Shown one piece after another: positions 33,381 through 41,149 of a DNA stretch of 64,000 nt. Source of the DNA: an uncultured Chlorobiota bacterium (GTDB lineage: Bacteria; Bacteroidota; Ignavibacteria; UBA10030; UBA6906). Made by a program: the position numbers and the translations under genes. The stretch lies in NCBI GenBank assembly GCA_900696645.1, contig CAADGV010000021.1, positions 137,040 to 201,039 of the forward strand, given 5' to 3'. Below the pieces are notes generated by a model. It made no database searches, was not told where the DNA came from, and worked only from the letters and a program-made list of their open reading frames with translations. Each line of letters starts with the position of its first letter. Position 1 is the first letter of the stretch.

Positions 33381-34439
33381 ATGAAAGCTCGTTGGTGTGC
33401 AATCGTGTTGTTGATGTGTGCGGCCTCTTTCGGGGCAATGGCCGGTGGCACGAGTGTCGCAAAGTATGCCGGGGAATTTACCTCGATTGGAGTTGGAGGA
33501 AGGGCTCTCGGTATGGGCGGCGCATTTGTGGCGCTCGCCAATGATGTGACCGCGGGATATTGGAATCCGGCAGGACTCTCGCACATTATGTATCCGCAAG
33601 CGGCGCTAATGCACGAAGAACGGTTCGGAAGTGCCGTCAATTACGACTACGGTGCAATTGCATTTCCGCAGGGGACCAATACGAGTTGGGGATTCAGCGT
33701 CATCCGCATTGGTGTTGATGATATTCAGGATACCCGCAACGCTGCAATTGATGCAAGCGGACGTTTGGTTGATTACCAGACATACATTCAGAATCCGGAA
33801 AACTACCGGATTGACCCGAGCCGCGTTACGTACTTCAATGCGGCGGATTGGGCCTTCTTCTTTACCTATTCAAAAAAGCAATCGGAAGATTTCTCGTACG
33901 GAGCAAGCCTCAAGGTGATCCGTCGTGAATTGGGTGATGCGTCGGCAACAGGCTTGGGGCTCGACATCGGCGTATGGTACATGCCGATGGATAATGTCAT
34001 GCTGGGCGTAAATCTTCAGGATATTACCACGACATTTCTTGCGTGGAATACCGGCACCAACGAGCTGATTTCCCCGACAATGAAAATAGGCTCGGCATAC
34101 TTCATCGAAGCATTCGGCGGGCGGTTTGCACCGGCAATTGATTTTGATATCCGTTTTGAGAATCGCAAGTCGGCATCAACCTTCGCCCTCGGTCCGGTGA
34201 GTTTCGATGCGCATATCGGAACGGAGTTTCTGTTCAGGAATCTCGTCGCATTCCGTGTCGGCTACAATGATGTGAAACAGGTATCATTTGGCGCTGGGCT
34301 TCATCTCCCGAAACTCAGCATCGACTATTCGTTTGCGCGGTTCGCACAATCCGCCGGAGATCGTCTTGACGATACCCACCGCATTTCGTTGATGTTCACG
34401 CTTGAAGCAGAACAGTTCAGGAGAGTGGACGGCTATTGA
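33381..34439 (+). CDS. PorV/PorQ family outer-membrane protein
   Basis: 352 residues with a signal peptide (IVLLMCAASFGAMAGG). The diagnostic segment GGRALGMGGAFVALANDVTA followed by GYWNPAGLSHI matches the FadL-like PorV/PorQ family. The remainder reads as alternating strands of a 14-strand-type barrel. PorV shuttles T9SS cargo to the surface in Bacteroidota, and PorQ-like paralogues have less certain roles. The window holds T9SS-tailed cargo but no other T9SS core gene. GAGAGG with a 6-nt spacer supports the ATG at 33381. It is monocistronic, ending at a strong terminator. Confidence 0.83.
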   Translation: MKARWCAIVLLMCAASFGAMAGGTSVAKYAGEFTSIGVGGRALGMGGAFVALANDVTAGYWNPAGLSHIMYPQAALMHEERFGSAVNYDYGAIAFPQGTNTSWGFSVIRIGVDDIQDTRNAAIDASGRLVDYQTYIQNPENYRIDPSRVTYFNAADWAFFFTYSKKQSEDFSYGASLKVIRRELGDASATGLGLDIGVWYMPMDNVMLGVNLQDITTTFLAWNTGTNELISPTMKIGSAYFIEAFGGRFAPAIDFDIRFENRKSASTFALGPVSFDAHIGTEFLFRNLVAFRVGYNDVKQVSFGAGLHLPKLSIDYSFARFAQSAGDRLDDTHRISLMFTLEAEQFRRVDGY

Positions 34440-34514: not shown

Positions 34515-36704
34515 CTACTTTGTTGTCAATTCGAATACCCCGCTCCAATCGGCAGGAGGCGGATTGCGCTTGAAGAAGCCTGCGCGTTCAGTGTACAACT
34601 GTGAAGGGTAGTCGTCTTTCCGAAGCATTGCCGCTTCGCTGAATTTTCGTTCCGCTTCGTCCCACTTTCTCAATCTGTACAGATGCAATCCTTCCGTGAA
34701 GAGTTGAACAAATCTCTCCAGCGCAGGATCAAGGTCCGCATCCCGTTGTTGAATCAACTCGAATGTTCGTACGGGTTCCGAGCGTCCCTTTACGGAGAGC
34801 AGGTCGAGTTCACGTCCGAGTATACTGTGTTTCACAGCCTCATACGTTGTCTCGCTGACGATGATCCCCGTTCGATACACTTTATTTGCTCCCTCAAGGC
34901 GTGAGGCAATGTTGACACTATCCCCAATAACAGTATAATCGAACTTCTCCGCGCCACCCATGTTGCCGACAACCATTTCACCCGTGTTAATCCCGATGCG
35001 CGTGTAGATCATCGGTCTGCCGTCCTGTTTCCAGCGATTCCGGATTTCCGCCAGTTTGTTCTGCATTTCCAAAGCTGCGGCACATGCGCGCAATGCGTGA
35101 TCTTCTTGCGATAGCGGCGCCCCCCAGAATGCGATCACCGCATCGCCAAAAAACTTGTCGAGTGTGCCGTTGTTGCGGAGAATAATGCTGCTCATTTCCC
35201 CGAAATACTCGTTCAACAATGCAACAAGCGCATCGGACTCCATTTTCTCGGAAATCGAGGTGAAGCCTTCAATATCACTGAACATGACAGTAAGCTGCTT
35301 GCGTTCTCCCCCCAACTTCAGCTTCTCCGGGTTGGCTATCAGCTCATCAACAACGGTCGGATTGACGTAGGTGCTGAACATTGTTTTGATCATGAGCCGC
35401 TGCTTGCGCTCGGTGACGAAGTGATACCCCGTGCTGGCGACATATCCGCCAAGCACTGCCACAATGGGGCTGATTGCCGCCATGACAAATTGAGAGTGGA
35501 TAAACAGCCAGAGCGTTGCTACTGCAATCACCGCAAGTTCGAACATCAGAAACAGGAAACCGAATAACTCGAAGACAAAGTGCCGCTTGCTTCGTCCGCT
35601 TCTCAGGGCGGATGTGACATAGAATGTGAAGAGCGAAAAGAACAGAACAAGAAGAATCTCCGATCGGGCTGACTGCTTGTACAGAAAGTTGTTCCGGAAG
35701 ATGCTCTCGATAACATTGGCGTGTATTTCCACACCATACATGAGATTGTCGCCGCGTTGCAACCCTTGTGCAATTGAGACAGGAAAGAGATCATGATCTT
35801 CGGGAAGTGTCGAACCGACAAGAACAATCTTGTCCGTAAACGTGCCGTCATAGAGGTACCCGTAGTCGGGGTCGCTGAACGTATTAATCGATTCGCCCGT
35901 TTCCGTTTCCTCGTTGGTGACGATGTCTTCGTCATCGATAACATCCGCAAACTTGACACGGCGAAATGTGCCGCTGGGTCCGAAGAAATTGATAAGCAGG
36001 GAGGAAGGATCGTATTGCGGAATCATTCTTCCGGCATACGTGAACCGTTTCTCTTCAACCGTTGCAACGTGCAGGGGAGGCAGCCCGAAGTATTTGTTGA
36101 GAACGGCAAAGCCGAATGTCGGTACGCGTACAGTGTCGTGCCGCCTGATGTGTGTTGCCTCCCAGAACGGGCTGTAGCGCCTGTACACGCCATCCGGGTC
36201 GTTACGGATATTGACGAGCCCGAGTGAACTATCCACCGTGAAGAAAATGTTGCCAAAGTGTTCATCGGCTTCAACCAATGTATAGTCCTGCTGCTTCGTT
36301 TCCAGCTTGCCGGCCAGAATAACAATGCCTGTTTCGCGAATTGCCGCCCGCAGATCGTCGTCGTTCTCCGGAGACTGTATCTCCGCTTCGCTCAGGATGA
36401 TATCGATTCCGACGGCTTTTGCACCGGCCGCCTTCAGATTGCGAACAAGGCGGGCATAGTACGAGCGGGGCCACGGCCAGCGGTCGGGCAGCGACCTGTA
36501 CGACTCATCGTTGACTTCCACAATCACGACATGACTGGATTCACGCAAGCCGGGATATGCACCGCGTGCCTGAAAGCGGTAGTCCAGGGTTGCCATCTCA
36601 AGCCGTTGCACAACTCCCAGTTGGAGTATATCGTCATGTGTGAGAATGATGGTGAGAACGGCGACAACAATGGCGACGAGTAGTTTTCTGACCTGCGGGT
36701 TCAT
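34515..36704 (-). CDS. CHASE2-domain membrane adenylate cyclase (class III)
   Basis: 729 residues. One N-terminal helix (LVAIVVAVLTIILT) leads to an extracytoplasmic CHASE2 domain (about 30-330; VVIVEVNDESYRSL and GAKAVGIDIILSE). Three membrane helices follow (about 345-430), then a cytoplasmic cyclase domain (about 465-650). Metal Asp residues are in MFSDIEGFTS and KFFGDAVIAFWG, with an adenine-selecting Lys. The transition-state Asn/Arg pair is in GDSVNIASRLEG. It should make cAMP in response to an external or periplasmic signal. It starts 6 bp after the barrel gene stop, in a locus with a FecR-domain protein, a pairing known for CHASE2 sensors. Confidence 0.93.
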   Translation of the reverse strand: MNPQVRKLLVAIVVAVLTIILTHDDILQLGVVQRLEMATLDYRFQARGAYPGLRESSHVVIVEVNDESYRSLPDRWPWPRSYYARLVRNLKAAGAKAVGIDIILSEAEIQSPENDDDLRAAIRETGIVILAGKLETKQQDYTLVEADEHFGNIFFTVDSSLGLVNIRNDPDGVYRRYSPFWEATHIRRHDTVRVPTFGFAVLNKYFGLPPLHVATVEEKRFTYAGRMIPQYDPSSLLINFFGPSGTFRRVKFADVIDDEDIVTNEETETGESINTFSDPDYGYLYDGTFTDKIVLVGSTLPEDHDLFPVSIAQGLQRGDNLMYGVEIHANVIESIFRNNFLYKQSARSEILLVLFFSLFTFYVTSALRSGRSKRHFVFELFGFLFLMFELAVIAVATLWLFIHSQFVMAAISPIVAVLGGYVASTGYHFVTERKQRLMIKTMFSTYVNPTVVDELIANPEKLKLGGERKQLTVMFSDIEGFTSISEKMESDALVALLNEYFGEMSSIILRNNGTLDKFFGDAVIAFWGAPLSQEDHALRACAAALEMQNKLAEIRNRWKQDGRPMIYTRIGINTGEMVVGNMGGAEKFDYTVIGDSVNIASRLEGANKVYRTGIIVSETTYEAVKHSILGRELDLLSVKGRSEPVRTFELIQQRDADLDPALERFVQLFTEGLHLYRLRKWDEAERKFSEAAMLRKDDYPSQLYTERAGFFKRNPPPADWSGVFELTTK

Positions 36705-36710
36705 TGCACG

Positions 36711-39149
36711 TCAGAAATCGAAGCGGTATTTGACGCTCCAGAAATCATCGTTCGGAAGGCCTATGTTGCCAAAGAGGCTGTACTGGAGGATGATGTTCAT
36801 TGCCCGTGCCACAGCCCATTGAGCAGACAGATCGAATGTGACCCGCTTGAAATCGCCAAATGTCGGACTGACGGTGCAGGAAATTGACGCAACGTCATCT
36901 GGAAGTGTGTACACACCGTTGGCGAACACGTTTGTATACCGCAGCCGCATGCGCGCCCCGAACGGTCCGGGATAATTATTGTAATTGTGCGTGAACCCCA
37001 TTGTGGTTTGAAGCGGTATCCGGTATCGCGTATTGAGATTCAAGGCCACGGAGGTGTTGCGCACGTCGAGGTTTTGCGGCGTGTAATCATTCCGTTTTGA
37101 CCCGGACAGACTGATGGATGCGGTATGTGATGCGTGGAAGTTGAACCGCTGAGCAAGAAGAACAAAAAGCCTGTTCGTCTGATCGTCCACTGCGCCGATC
37201 ACGAATCGTGGAGAAAGGTTGTTGATGTTTCGATAATGTGTGAAACCCACGGCTATGCTCGGTAAGATCGAACGCGGATCGTAGTTGACAGCAACATTGT
37301 ACGTTGTAAAGTGGGTTGTTACCGCTTTTGATTTGCTGGTATTGTCCGAAAGACGCTCGTACCCGAGAGTGATGAAGAGATTCTGAGCCGGAAGCTTGAT
37401 CCGATCGGTGATATTAAAGCCCGCTATGTCCGTTCGCAGGAACGTCTGTCCGAATGAATTGTAGTCGCTTCCCCGAAACTGGTAGTTGATTCTGAATGCG
37501 TTATCGAAGTAGTTCAGGGCAAGGCCCACGTCGTACGCAACAGTTGAGAGTTTTTTGAACGACAGAGGCCGGAGGTTATCGTTAACCGTAATGAAACTCT
37601 TCAGAATATCCCGCGCATTTTTGATGGCAGCCGCATCCTTCTTGTACACCGAGTCGATATACGCATCGGTGAAGCTGCCGCTTGAAATATCATTATTGTA
37701 TGCGCTGAATGCAAACTGTCCGGTTAACTCAATTCTGCTGTTATCGAAGCGCGACAACAAATCCGCTCCCAGCACAAGATTTTCCTTCGGTCTCGTTCCG
37801 TACCGGATTGAGTTTATGTCGTCTTTTGACTTCAGCCAGGTGAAGCCAATCTGGTATGTCTCGCCCGATCCGAAACTCGGCCGCACAGCAAAAAGGCTGC
37901 GCGAGTAGGTTCCGTAATTGTACTTTCCCCAGAGAAGCGAATCGATTTTTGCATAGGCCGCCAGGGAGTCGATCTGCTGTTCGTACGCAAGCTGTTCGAT
38001 GGGAATAACTTTCAGCAGAGTTCCCTCAACATCCCGGACTGTTCTTCCGGCTGCAACTTCCACGTTGAATTTACCGAGCCTGATTGCAGAATTCAGCCCG
38101 CGGACTCGTTTTCCATTCAAGATCAGACTTGGAAAGTACGGGTAACTGTCGCCGTATCCAACAAGAAGCCATTTCGATTCCAATCCGGCATAGTATCTGT
38201 TCTGCGGCTGTCGATTCAAGCGTTCATCCGATGTGACGAAGGCATTAGCATTGAAACGCCACGCCCCCTGGCTGCCGTTGAAGCGGAAGTTGCCCCGATT
38301 GTACCACGTTTCTTCGCGGTTCACTTTCTCGCGCCTGAGCTCAAGGTCAACCGATCCTGTTGACACAAATGCTGTACCTCCCCGTTCGGGTGGTTGTCCC
38401 TCTGCAAGCACATTGAATGACGTTGTGACCTGCCGGTGCAACAATCCCTGGCGGTTGTACAACAGCACCGAAGCCGTGTAACGTCCCGGCTTGAGAGTGA
38501 CTCCATGATTGGCCGGAACATACACGAGAATGTCATCGCTGATAACAATATGGCGCGTAACATTTGTATTGTTCAGAAAGAGTTGTGTCGCCCTCTTGAC
38601 AACCATCGTATCCGCCCTGTACAGCGAAACGGAAATCAGCACATCGTTCGTCTCATAGGATGCGTTTGGTTCAGGACTGAGGAACACCGCCTGCACATCA
38701 TCTTCCTTCTTCATAACAGGAAGCTGAAGGGTTTTCCCGGGTGCATTGGAAAGCGGGTCGGGGTTTTCGCTTACAGGGTATGATTCAAGCTGCCCCGAAC
38801 GATTCACGAGCACGATATAGTATTCAAGAAACGGCGGTGATACATGTCTGGGAGGAACTCGTGCTATTGCCGTGTTTCCCATCAGTTCCATCTCCACTCT
38901 TGTCCAGCCCGACTCGGTGAATGAGCGGTAGAGAAAGTACACACGTTCGATCGTTTCTCCATGCCGCAGCTCGGCACGGACTACCAACGGTGATTCGCTA
39001 ACAGCCTCAGATGGCGAGAACGAAGAGATGCTCGTTGAAACCTGGGCCTGTAGCGATGAAGCACAGACGAGAAGAGAACAGAGCAGGAACAGAGTATGCA
39101 GAACACGGCAACGGCACCTCGATAGGGTCGGCGAAAAGCCAATTGTCAT
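36711..39149 (-). CDS. Outer-membrane beta-barrel protein with N-terminal Ig-like domains
   Basis: About 812 residues from the ATG at 39149; a TTG three codons earlier is possible, and ribosome-site support is weak. After a signal peptide (FLLCSLLVCASSLQAQ) come two Ig-like segments (about 35-140 and 150-250), then roughly 500 residues of alternating strands with Asn/Arg/Tyr-rich loops. The protein ends YRFDF, with a terminal Phe as in barrels. I do not recognise a named family. It lies between the FecR-domain gene and the CHASE2 cyclase on the same strand, suggesting it is the surface component of a signalling or transport system. Confidence 0.7.
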   Translation of the reverse strand: MTIGFSPTLSRCRCRVLHTLFLLCSLLVCASSLQAQVSTSISSFSPSEAVSESPLVVRAELRHGETIERVYFLYRSFTESGWTRVEMELMGNTAIARVPPRHVSPPFLEYYIVLVNRSGQLESYPVSENPDPLSNAPGKTLQLPVMKKEDDVQAVFLSPEPNASYETNDVLISVSLYRADTMVVKRATQLFLNNTNVTRHIVISDDILVYVPANHGVTLKPGRYTASVLLYNRQGLLHRQVTTSFNVLAEGQPPERGGTAFVSTGSVDLELRREKVNREETWYNRGNFRFNGSQGAWRFNANAFVTSDERLNRQPQNRYYAGLESKWLLVGYGDSYPYFPSLILNGKRVRGLNSAIRLGKFNVEVAAGRTVRDVEGTLLKVIPIEQLAYEQQIDSLAAYAKIDSLLWGKYNYGTYSRSLFAVRPSFGSGETYQIGFTWLKSKDDINSIRYGTRPKENLVLGADLLSRFDNSRIELTGQFAFSAYNNDISSGSFTDAYIDSVYKKDAAAIKNARDILKSFITVNDNLRPLSFKKLSTVAYDVGLALNYFDNAFRINYQFRGSDYNSFGQTFLRTDIAGFNITDRIKLPAQNLFITLGYERLSDNTSKSKAVTTHFTTYNVAVNYDPRSILPSIAVGFTHYRNINNLSPRFVIGAVDDQTNRLFVLLAQRFNFHASHTASISLSGSKRNDYTPQNLDVRNTSVALNLNTRYRIPLQTTMGFTHNYNNYPGPFGARMRLRYTNVFANGVYTLPDDVASISCTVSPTFGDFKRVTFDLSAQWAVARAMNIILQYSLFGNIGLPNDDFWSVKYRFDF

Positions 39150-39172
39150 TGTATCCAAGCGGAGAATGATTC

Positions 39173-39209
39173 AAAAAAAAGCCCTGCAGAACATCACATC
39201 CACAGGGCT
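39173..39209 (-). terminator. Intrinsic terminator after the FecR-domain gene
   Basis: On the minus strand AGCCCTG, a 16-nt loop, CAGGGCT, followed immediately by eight T's. It lies between the FecR-domain gene and the barrel gene, so the locus is either two transcription units or one with partial read-through. Confidence 0.75.
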
Positions 39210-39228
39210 ACTTGCGTGTGAACGTCAC

Positions 39229-39924
39229 TTATCTGAATTTGATTTCGATATTCTTCTTGTTGCCCCCGCCATCTTTCAACTCGATATCAAGTCTGCCATC
39301 CTGCTCTCCTGTACGCGAGGAAAGCTCGGCGGCTACTTTTTCTTCGGGTGTTGAAGGGCGGACTTGCAAAGTGCCATCGGGATAGGAAAGTCCCGTAAAC
39401 CCACCGCCTACATCGACAGCTCGCGATGAAACCTTGCTTGAAAGTACAACCAGTCCGTCGAGGACGATCAACTTGTCCAACGAATCCGAGGCGCTGAATT
39501 GTCCGCTTGTTCCCCGCACCGACGCAACAGAAGTCGGCGACGAAAAGCGGAAGCCCTCACCCTGCTGCTGCTTCTTGATGCTGAAGCCGATAACGCCACG
39601 CTCGAACTCCGTCGATTTCAGGGTTGAAGTTCCATCCTTCAGATCGTTAAGCAGAACCTCGGTCTTTTCCCGCACGCGCAACATGCTGTTATCCTTGAAT
39701 TTGATTACCGCGATCGATTTCTCGCCGGTTTTCAAACGTTCGCCCGACGAAAGCATTTCACCCCGCTTGGCTGCCTGCCAGGCTTTGTCGGGTTGTTTGC
39801 GCGTAACGTCGAGAATAACTCTGCTGATAAGCGCGATTGTTGTATTCTGTGTCGGGGGAGGAACTGCGCCCGGAAGCACACAGAGCATCACCAAAATCAA
39901 GCCTGCTAAACCTGTTGTTTTCAT
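39229..39924 (-). CDS. FecR-domain secreted protein
   Basis: 231 residues from the ATG at 39924, supported by GGGGAG 7 nt upstream. A signal peptide (LAGLILVMLCVLPGAVPPP) is followed by a FecR domain (about 60-165): GEMLSSGERLKTGEKSIAVI, MLRVREKTEVLL, FSSPTSVASVRGTSGQF. The C-terminal 60 residues are charged and low-complexity (KDGGGNKKN). It lacks the cytoplasmic anti-sigma region of true FecR, so it is a periplasmic FecR-like protein. Such proteins recur next to CHASE2 cyclases. It follows the FN3-like gene by 16 bp and precedes the barrel gene. Confidence 0.88.
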   Translation of the reverse strand: MKTTGLAGLILVMLCVLPGAVPPPTQNTTIALISRVILDVTRKQPDKAWQAAKRGEMLSSGERLKTGEKSIAVIKFKDNSMLRVREKTEVLLNDLKDGTSTLKSTEFERGVIGFSIKKQQQGEGFRFSSPTSVASVRGTSGQFSASDSLDKLIVLDGLVVLSSKVSSRAVDVGGGFTGLSYPDGTLQVRPSTPEEKVAAELSSRTGEQDGRLDIELKDGGGNKKNIEIKFR

Positions 39925-39940
39925 TGTCAGACTCCCCTGA

Positions 39941-41011
39941 TTATTCAACGATTACCGAACTGACTGATTCCGGGCTTGACCGGATATCATTCAATGCGTT
40001 TAACAAGTCGGCCAAAGAAATAGGGGAGCCATTAAACCGGAATGTTCCGGACGGGCTGAGATCCTGGGCGCGAATTTGATCGAACACGGGTTTGTATGAA
40101 GGAGGCAGTGCATCTTCCAATTCCTGAAGAAGCCAATCCAGGGAACTTCTGCGCTGAGTCGAAACAGAGAATGACCGCAAAGCGCTTCGAAGTTCGAGAT
40201 CTGTTCCGCCCGCTGTGCCAACCAATCCCTTGACGTGCCACACGTATGTCCGGCCAGGCATCAGAGGGCGCGCCCCTGTTACAGGATAGCGGAATGATCG
40301 CGTTGAAACGGTTGCGGTTATCTGGGGAGTACCGGAAGCCACTTCTTCAAGGCTCCGCTGACCGGGAAGCATTTCATAGATACTAATTGTTGCGCGCGGC
40401 CCGTCGTATTGCCATTCAAACAACGGCAACTCTTCCACCACTGTCTCGCCCGCTGCAGGTGCAAGCAACACAGGGGATGACGGATTGGTTAGATTGAATT
40501 CGAAGATCCCCTGGCCCGTGGCATTGCCAGCGGTGACATCCACCGTAAACCTGTACGTGCCTGCCGGCATCGAGCCGCTCGGAAGGGCGATCTCCTGAAA
40601 TGCCGCCTTCGCCTGTGGGTTGAATATGTAACCATCAACATCGCGCTGCGGTATGCCTCTTCCTCTTCCAAGTTCGAGGTTGGTAACAGTTCTGGTACCA
40701 TCCAACATGAATGGCTTCGAGATGAACTTCGCGGCATTCACGTAGGTTTCACCGGCAGCCAAATAGACATCAAGGTTGATCGTGAGTATCACTTCAACCG
40801 ATTGAGGCGACGACATAGTGATTGTAAAAAGCCACTTCGGTGTGGTCGCATTGAGAAAATCAAGGTCGCTAATACTCAAAGTATTAACGGGTGCACGAAG
40901 GGTGGTAACGGTGATTTGGCTCTGTGAGGTGGCCGGCCACAGAAGAACTGTCAAGCAGAAAAGAACCCCAAGGACTCGCCCAGTCCTTTTCCCATCAAAC
41001 ACATTCTTCAT
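39941..41011 (-). CDS. Secreted protein with FN3/Ig-like domain, first gene of the FecR/CHASE2 locus
   Basis: 356 residues with a signal peptide (VLFCLTVLLWPATSQSQ). An N-terminal beta-rich region (about 35-180) may form a Bacteroidota-type Ig fold. An FN3-like domain follows (about 182-285: PVLLAPAAGETVVEELPLFE, then PGRTYVWHVKG), then a helical C-terminal region with SLDWLLQELEDALPP. No enzymatic motif is seen and I do not recognise a family. The start has AAGGGG 7 nt upstream. It probably acts at the envelope with the FecR-like and barrel proteins encoded downstream. Confidence 0.72.
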   Translation of the reverse strand: MKNVFDGKRTGRVLGVLFCLTVLLWPATSQSQITVTTLRAPVNTLSISDLDFLNATTPKWLFTITMSSPQSVEVILTINLDVYLAAGETYVNAAKFISKPFMLDGTRTVTNLELGRGRGIPQRDVDGYIFNPQAKAAFQEIALPSGSMPAGTYRFTVDVTAGNATGQGIFEFNLTNPSSPVLLAPAAGETVVEELPLFEWQYDGPRATISIYEMLPGQRSLEEVASGTPQITATVSTRSFRYPVTGARPLMPGRTYVWHVKGLVGTAGGTDLELRSALRSFSVSTQRRSSLDWLLQELEDALPPSYKPVFDQIRAQDLSPSGTFRFNGSPISLADLLNALNDIRSSPESVSSVIVE

Positions 41012-41114
41012 AATTGTTCCCCTTCAGATTATGAATAGACAAGATTCCCCTTGAAATGATAAGAAAAACCCCATTGGATAGCAAACCCGATAATCTTTGC
41101 GATTGTTCAACGCA

Positions 41115-41149
41115 CAAAAAAGGGAGGGCTCTTCAAAATGCCCTCCCTT
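41115..41149 (-). terminator. Intrinsic terminator after rseP
   Basis: On the minus strand AGGGAGGGC (from 41148), a ten-base loop, GCCCTCCCT, then TTTTTT. It ends the dxr-rseP transcript and insulates the secreted-protein gene at 41011. Confidence 0.85.

Follow-up and report, generated by a model that had tools for sequence, protein, structure and literature searches.

A conserved four-gene envelope unit of Ignavibacteria and related bacteria, with a probable role in relaying outer-membrane signals to a CHASE2 cyclase

Introduction

Apart from TonB/sigma systems, signalling from the outer membrane to a second-messenger enzyme in the cytoplasm is still largely a puzzle, as are most of the signals perceived by CHASE2 domains. 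The closest known system to the locus described here is NsrA-CyaK of Sinorhizobium meliloti. According to published accounts (PMC7529298, PMC13001267), NsrA combines a FecR domain, TPRs and a C-terminal barrel in one outer-membrane receptor and is needed for CyaK-dependent signalling to uL2 protein; the cAMP response to an external cue depends on this barrel protein. An outer-membrane barrel together with a FecR domain and a CHASE2 adenylate cyclase is already known from this system.

The same parts occur in other combinations here and in three further systems. In Campylobacterota, the gene cluster around a CHASE2 adenylate cyclase also encodes an outer-membrane protein with a FecR domain, a TPR protein and a phosphodiesterase; neither an FN3-like protein nor a separate barrel is described for it (PMC9239204). 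Magnetotactic bacteria carry the gene for MtxA followed by a CHASE2 adenylate cyclase gene; MtxA is a single secreted protein with TPRs for which no barrel is described, and its deletion gave no phenotype under standard conditions (PMC4439547). The Burkholderia BiofilmReg operon places a FecR-domain secreted protein beside a CHASE2 sensor, with a histidine kinase as output and LysM in place of the barrel (PMC5192318). Our literature search found no paper linking CHASE2 with Ignavibacteria. Here we describe a four-gene locus from an Ignavibacteria-type genome (GTDB Bacteroidota), contained in a 64,000-nucleotide stretch of DNA that was analysed as a whole and is referred to below as the window.

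Results

Locus and transcription signals

The initial annotation had called four genes at this locus, and the ORF list agrees, placing all four on the minus strand (Table 1), with the likely start codons corrected to ATG 39924 for FecR and ATG 39149 for the barrel. The genes form a co-directional unit transcribed in the order FN3-like, FecR, barrel, CHASE2-cyclase, and are separated by gaps of ~16 nt (FN3-like/FecR), ~79 nt (FecR/barrel) and ~6 nt (barrel/cyclase). The intrinsic terminator 5' of the unit ends the upstream dxr-rseP transcript and sets the unit apart from rseP, so the unit probably has its own promoter, for which the consensus match in Table 1 is a candidate. No Rfam RNA was found in the region. 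A gene of the PorV/PorQ family (window 33381-34439) converges on the cyclase gene, and such a gene adjoins the cyclase in the window's taxonomic order and also in a distant family (f21).

Table 1. Coordinates of the four genes and the associated transcription signals in the window
Feature	Coordinates	Strand	Evidence
FN3-like secreted protein, 356 aa	39941..41011	-	ORF call; no Pfam/NCBIfam; AlphaFold; FN3 structure matches; synteny
FecR-domain secreted protein	39229..39924 (ORF 39229-39948)	-	Pfam FecR 1.5e-11; alignment
Terminator-like hairpin, 11 pairs + T run, FecR/barrel gap	39180..39209	-	Hairpin scan
Outer-membrane beta-barrel, 812 aa	36711..39149 (ORF to 39158)	-	AlphaFold; MtrB structural match; no Pfam family
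CHASE2 class IIIb adenylate cyclase, 729 aa	34515..36704	-	Pfam; hydropathy; catalytic residues; CyaK similarity
Promoter-like site 5' of unit	41056..41084	-	9/12, consensus match only
Intrinsic terminator, perfect 10-bp stem, 10-nt loop, T run	41115..41149	-	Direct sequence reading

In the FecR/barrel gap, a loose scan for hairpins followed by a T run gave matches at 17 of the 51 loci; several of the matches are weak, and the recurrent hairpins differ in sequence and are non-homologous between loci. The same scan matched five barrel/cyclase gaps and no FN3-like/FecR gap, an imperfect control given that gap lengths differ. Relatives with a hairpin in the FecR/barrel gap include L033, L036, L042, L050, L051, L055, L057, L146, L147 and L160. 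It is possible that the hairpin is an internal attenuator, which may raise the output of FN3-like protein and FecR above that of barrel and cyclase.

The CHASE2 cyclase

Pfam matches to CHASE2 (E 1.4e-51) and to the cyclase (E 2.1e-25) fall within one protein, in which hydropathy and Pfam place an N-terminal TM helix, CHASE2 at residues 25-359, about three TM helices at 348-425 and the cyclase domain at 469-648. The catalytic residues had been reported as intact, and this holds across homologues: D477, D521, K517, T591, N598 and R602 are identical in 24/24 sequences, the enzyme thereby retaining the two metal Asp, the Lys/Thr substrate pair and the transition-state Asn/Arg, the pattern of class IIIb adenylate cyclases. 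Adenylate cyclases are also its nearest relatives of solved structure, and its best matches in a plasmid collection include S. meliloti CyaK (E 3e-71, 32% identity). The genome encodes cNMP-binding proteins. The output of the enzyme is probably cAMP.

The FecR protein

The FecR protein has a signal peptide, its FecR domain and a conserved C-terminal tail, with SPTSVASIRGT as the alignment core. The FecR region of NsrA (FecR domain E 2.3e-15), the gene for which directly adjoins cyaK, matches the window FecR profile with an E-value of 6e-10. In the PDB, the same profile came close to significance with MtxA alone, in a weak match (E 0.016); MtxA is secreted, like the window protein, and has an Ig/FN3-type domain.

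The presence of a FecR domain together with an outer-membrane barrel could also be read as surface signalling of the FecI-FecR-FecA type, acting on a sigma factor. The domain content contradicts this reading, which we rejected as extremely improbable: by Pfam the barrel has no TonB plug or signalling domain and the FecR protein no anti-sigma domain, FecR has no membrane anchor but a signal peptide, the immediate neighbours of the unit include no recognised sigma-factor gene, and it is a cyclase that is conserved as the partner.

Folds of the barrel and the FN3-like protein

An 812-residue outer-membrane barrel with Ig-like domains had been proposed from the sequence, and the AlphaFold single-chain model (pLDDT 83.9, 50 sequences) bears this out, with a signal peptide, a pair of beta-sandwich domains at the N-terminus and a barrel of about 26 long strands. 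A structure search returned MtrB as the closest solved barrel (6r2q_B: Z 18.3, rmsd 5.1, 462 residues aligned), with the alginate exporter AlgE also among the closest structures (Z 15.8). These matches to the model confirm a large outer-membrane barrel, not its family, and neither the barrel nor the FN3-like protein matched any Pfam family. Although the MtrB match might suggest that the barrel is an MtrB-like electron conduit, none of the four proteins contains a CxxCH haem motif and Pfam gave no match to the MtrB/PioB family; a role in electron transfer was therefore dismissed as hardly credible.

The FN3-like protein, too, had been described as secreted, in agreement with its signal peptide and with an AlphaFold single-chain model (pLDDT 85.3) of two FN3/Ig-type beta-sandwich domains (residues ~33-285) and a helical C-terminal region. 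The best structural matches of the model are FN3/Ig tandems (Z about 10); there was no match to an NCBIfam family, and a profile of the protein found no solved relative by sequence. Homologues of the FN3-like protein adjoin FecR across the phylum.

The FecR proteins of four relatives contain the N-terminal domain of the barrel (domain E 3e-10 to 2e-15), in one copy or, in one case, in three. In these proteins (L052, L055, L057 and L058) it forms an insertion that separates the FecR domain from the conserved C-terminal tail. The sharing of this domain between FecR and barrel is the strongest hint, drawn from sequence, that the two may associate physically. Secreted proteins of very large size in other members of the phylum also match the barrel N-terminal domain.

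Comparison with NsrA-CyaK

As in NsrA-CyaK, an outer-membrane barrel and a FecR domain are encoded beside a CHASE2 adenylate cyclase, and CHASE2 and a class III cyclase are joined in one inner-membrane protein. Unlike in NsrA-CyaK, the window's barrel gene stands between the FecR and cyclase genes, and an FN3-like protein is added to a set that is spread across a different phylum. Whereas NsrA holds FecR, TPRs and barrel in one 1200-aa protein, the window encodes FecR and barrel as separate proteins, in neither of which Pfam detected a TPR region. The window barrel profile, run against the single NsrA sequence, gave no match in what is a weak test. Since FecR and barrel are not fused here, we regard the set as a variant of the NsrA-CyaK kind and not as an NsrA orthologue; what is new relative to NsrA-CyaK is the split into separate proteins, an unrelated-looking barrel and the FN3-like partner.

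Distribution and synteny

The barrel is found in 35 genomes of a set comprising the window's genome and 40 relatives, and strong matches to it are present in 74 of the 296 genomes of our phylum sample. CHASE2 is also present in 73 of these 74 and lies within 700 bp of the barrel in 64, an association that at the genome level is far beyond chance (Fisher p about 5e-40, kinship ignored). Gene order was inspected at 60 barrel loci, and at 45 of them the complete set of four is present with order and strand unchanged. The barrel and FN3-like genes are in this way co-conserved with FecR and CHASE2, contrary to the outcome that the initial annotation had named as one that would speak against it.

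The other 15 loci comprise six cut by contig ends, one in G027, seven of Chlorobia-type (an inferred assignment) and one distant barrel in G068. In G027 the unit is split with all four genes kept, the cyclase being on another contig. Eight Chlorobia-type genomes have the unit dispersed over three loci and retain all four families, FN3-like and FecR still adjacent and the barrel and CHASE2 cyclase elsewhere. In a tree of the cyclases those of the cassette form one clade (support 0.994), which takes in the G027 copy and the Chlorobia-type orthologues tested: in each of seven Chlorobia-type genomes examined this way, the cyclases include one inside the clade. The other CHASE2 cyclases of the sample, including those associated with NHL giants, fall outside it. 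Barrel, FecR and FN3-like protein are all absent from the four genomes of a sister genus (g7), in which matches to CHASE2 or cyclase are partial only, with at most 33% identity, one of the CHASE2 matches (in G008) being to a CHASE2 sigma-54 activator. One genome (G294) has FecR and CHASE2 with no recognised barrel.

The unit lies beside dxr-rseP in the window's taxonomic order, as would be expected if the four genes were chance neighbours travelling with that region. It is found beside priA in one family (f2), however, and its order is kept in contexts without dxr-rseP in others, for example f7, f14 and f32. The unit is thus not tied to a single neighbourhood, and all parts are retained when dispersed. 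Hitch-hiking is contradicted by this survey, and we rejected it as a most improbable account.

Mean pairwise identity rises from 22% for the FN3-like protein through 30-31% for FecR and barrel to 41% for the cyclase, a gradient that fits an outward-facing, fast-changing sensor with a conserved output. Divergence is correlated among the four proteins (r 0.72-0.92); since shared descent accounts for the correlation, we did not read it as a sign of contact.

Taken together, synteny, co-retention, co-loss, the shared domain and the analogy with NsrA-CyaK make it well supported that the four genes are one functional set. This part of the initial annotation stands, while the barrel is less exceptional than had been claimed.

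FN3-like/barrel sets without a cyclase

Related sets of FN3-like protein and barrel without FecR or CHASE2 occur in the same genome (L202) and in G068 (L153), and a weaker FN3 match lies beside a barrel relative in G052 (L163); such pairs indicate that barrel and FN3-like protein can serve a function by themselves. The set in the window's own genome (C14, L202:8920-17210) is paralogous and encodes a 1487-aa protein with an FN3-like start, a 704-aa Fn3 protein and a 563-aa barrel of the same superfamily. As the main alternative to a signalling relay, barrel and FN3-like protein might accordingly form a machine that exports a polysaccharide, or the FN3-like protein itself, or anchors it at the surface, with FecR and the CHASE2 cyclase only monitoring its working or loading; the AlgE match and the position of the FN3-like protein as the most divergent member of the unit would agree with this. 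Against it, the cassette has no synthase, chaperone or T9SS tail, the structural matches are to generic large barrels, and the barrel and FN3-like genes are unlinked in Chlorobia-type genomes. We consider an export machine unlikely.

Other CHASE2 loci

The window's genome encodes a second CHASE2 protein (C14:102422-103426; L065:6339-9023), which is fused to a sigma-54 activator (AAA+) and is not a cyclase, and has a close counterpart in G008 (L203). At three loci (L176, L179 and L167) CHASE2 cyclases follow a giant secreted protein of 1500-1670 aa (NHL/TPR in L176) and are also preceded by a TPR-tailed secreted protein of 224-259 aa; the two apparently make up a parallel outer partner. Beside the CHASE2 loci with NHL/TPR giants there are small proteins that had looked FecR-like by eye; given weak hhalign results (14.7% and 1.6%), we do not assign them to FecR. 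In the reduced genome G322 the genes upstream of a CHASE2 cyclase encode a CsgG-like protein and a protein of 831 aa (L178).

Discussion

We think it likely that the four-gene unit is a three-layer signalling relay from the outer membrane to a cytoplasmic cyclase, for which we infer the partner contacts, the topology, the direction of signalling and cAMP as the product. The barrel would be lodged in the outer membrane, its beta-sandwich domains facing the periplasm, and the FN3-like protein would bind it as a surface or periplasmic co-receptor, the two sensing, or assembling, at the surface. FecR would act as an adapter in the periplasm, responding to the state of the complex of barrel and FN3-like protein and contacting the CHASE2 domain, which would in turn set the activity of the cytoplasmic cyclase, and the resulting changes in cAMP would be read by CRP-type proteins.

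A broader proposal, which we offer tentatively and regard as rather doubtful, is that the unit represents a phylum-wide, ancestral class of cyclase receptors reaching from the outer to the inner membrane, with a separate and exchangeable protein for each of the roles of receptor, co-receptor, adapter and cyclase. A surface machine of FN3-like protein and barrel might have come first and gained its link to cAMP once FecR and a CHASE2 cyclase were added, with FecR recruiting the barrel through copies of the barrel's N-terminal domain.

The set ties the reports on NsrA, MtxA and Campylobacterota into one parts list, consisting of a CHASE2 sensor, FecR, Ig/FN3 or TPR, and an outer-membrane element. 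Its four parts are separable and widely conserved and come with natural experiments (dispersal, co-loss, barrel loss and domain sharing), so that the path of the signal is open to gene-by-gene dissection in a unit that probably reports surface events to the cell.
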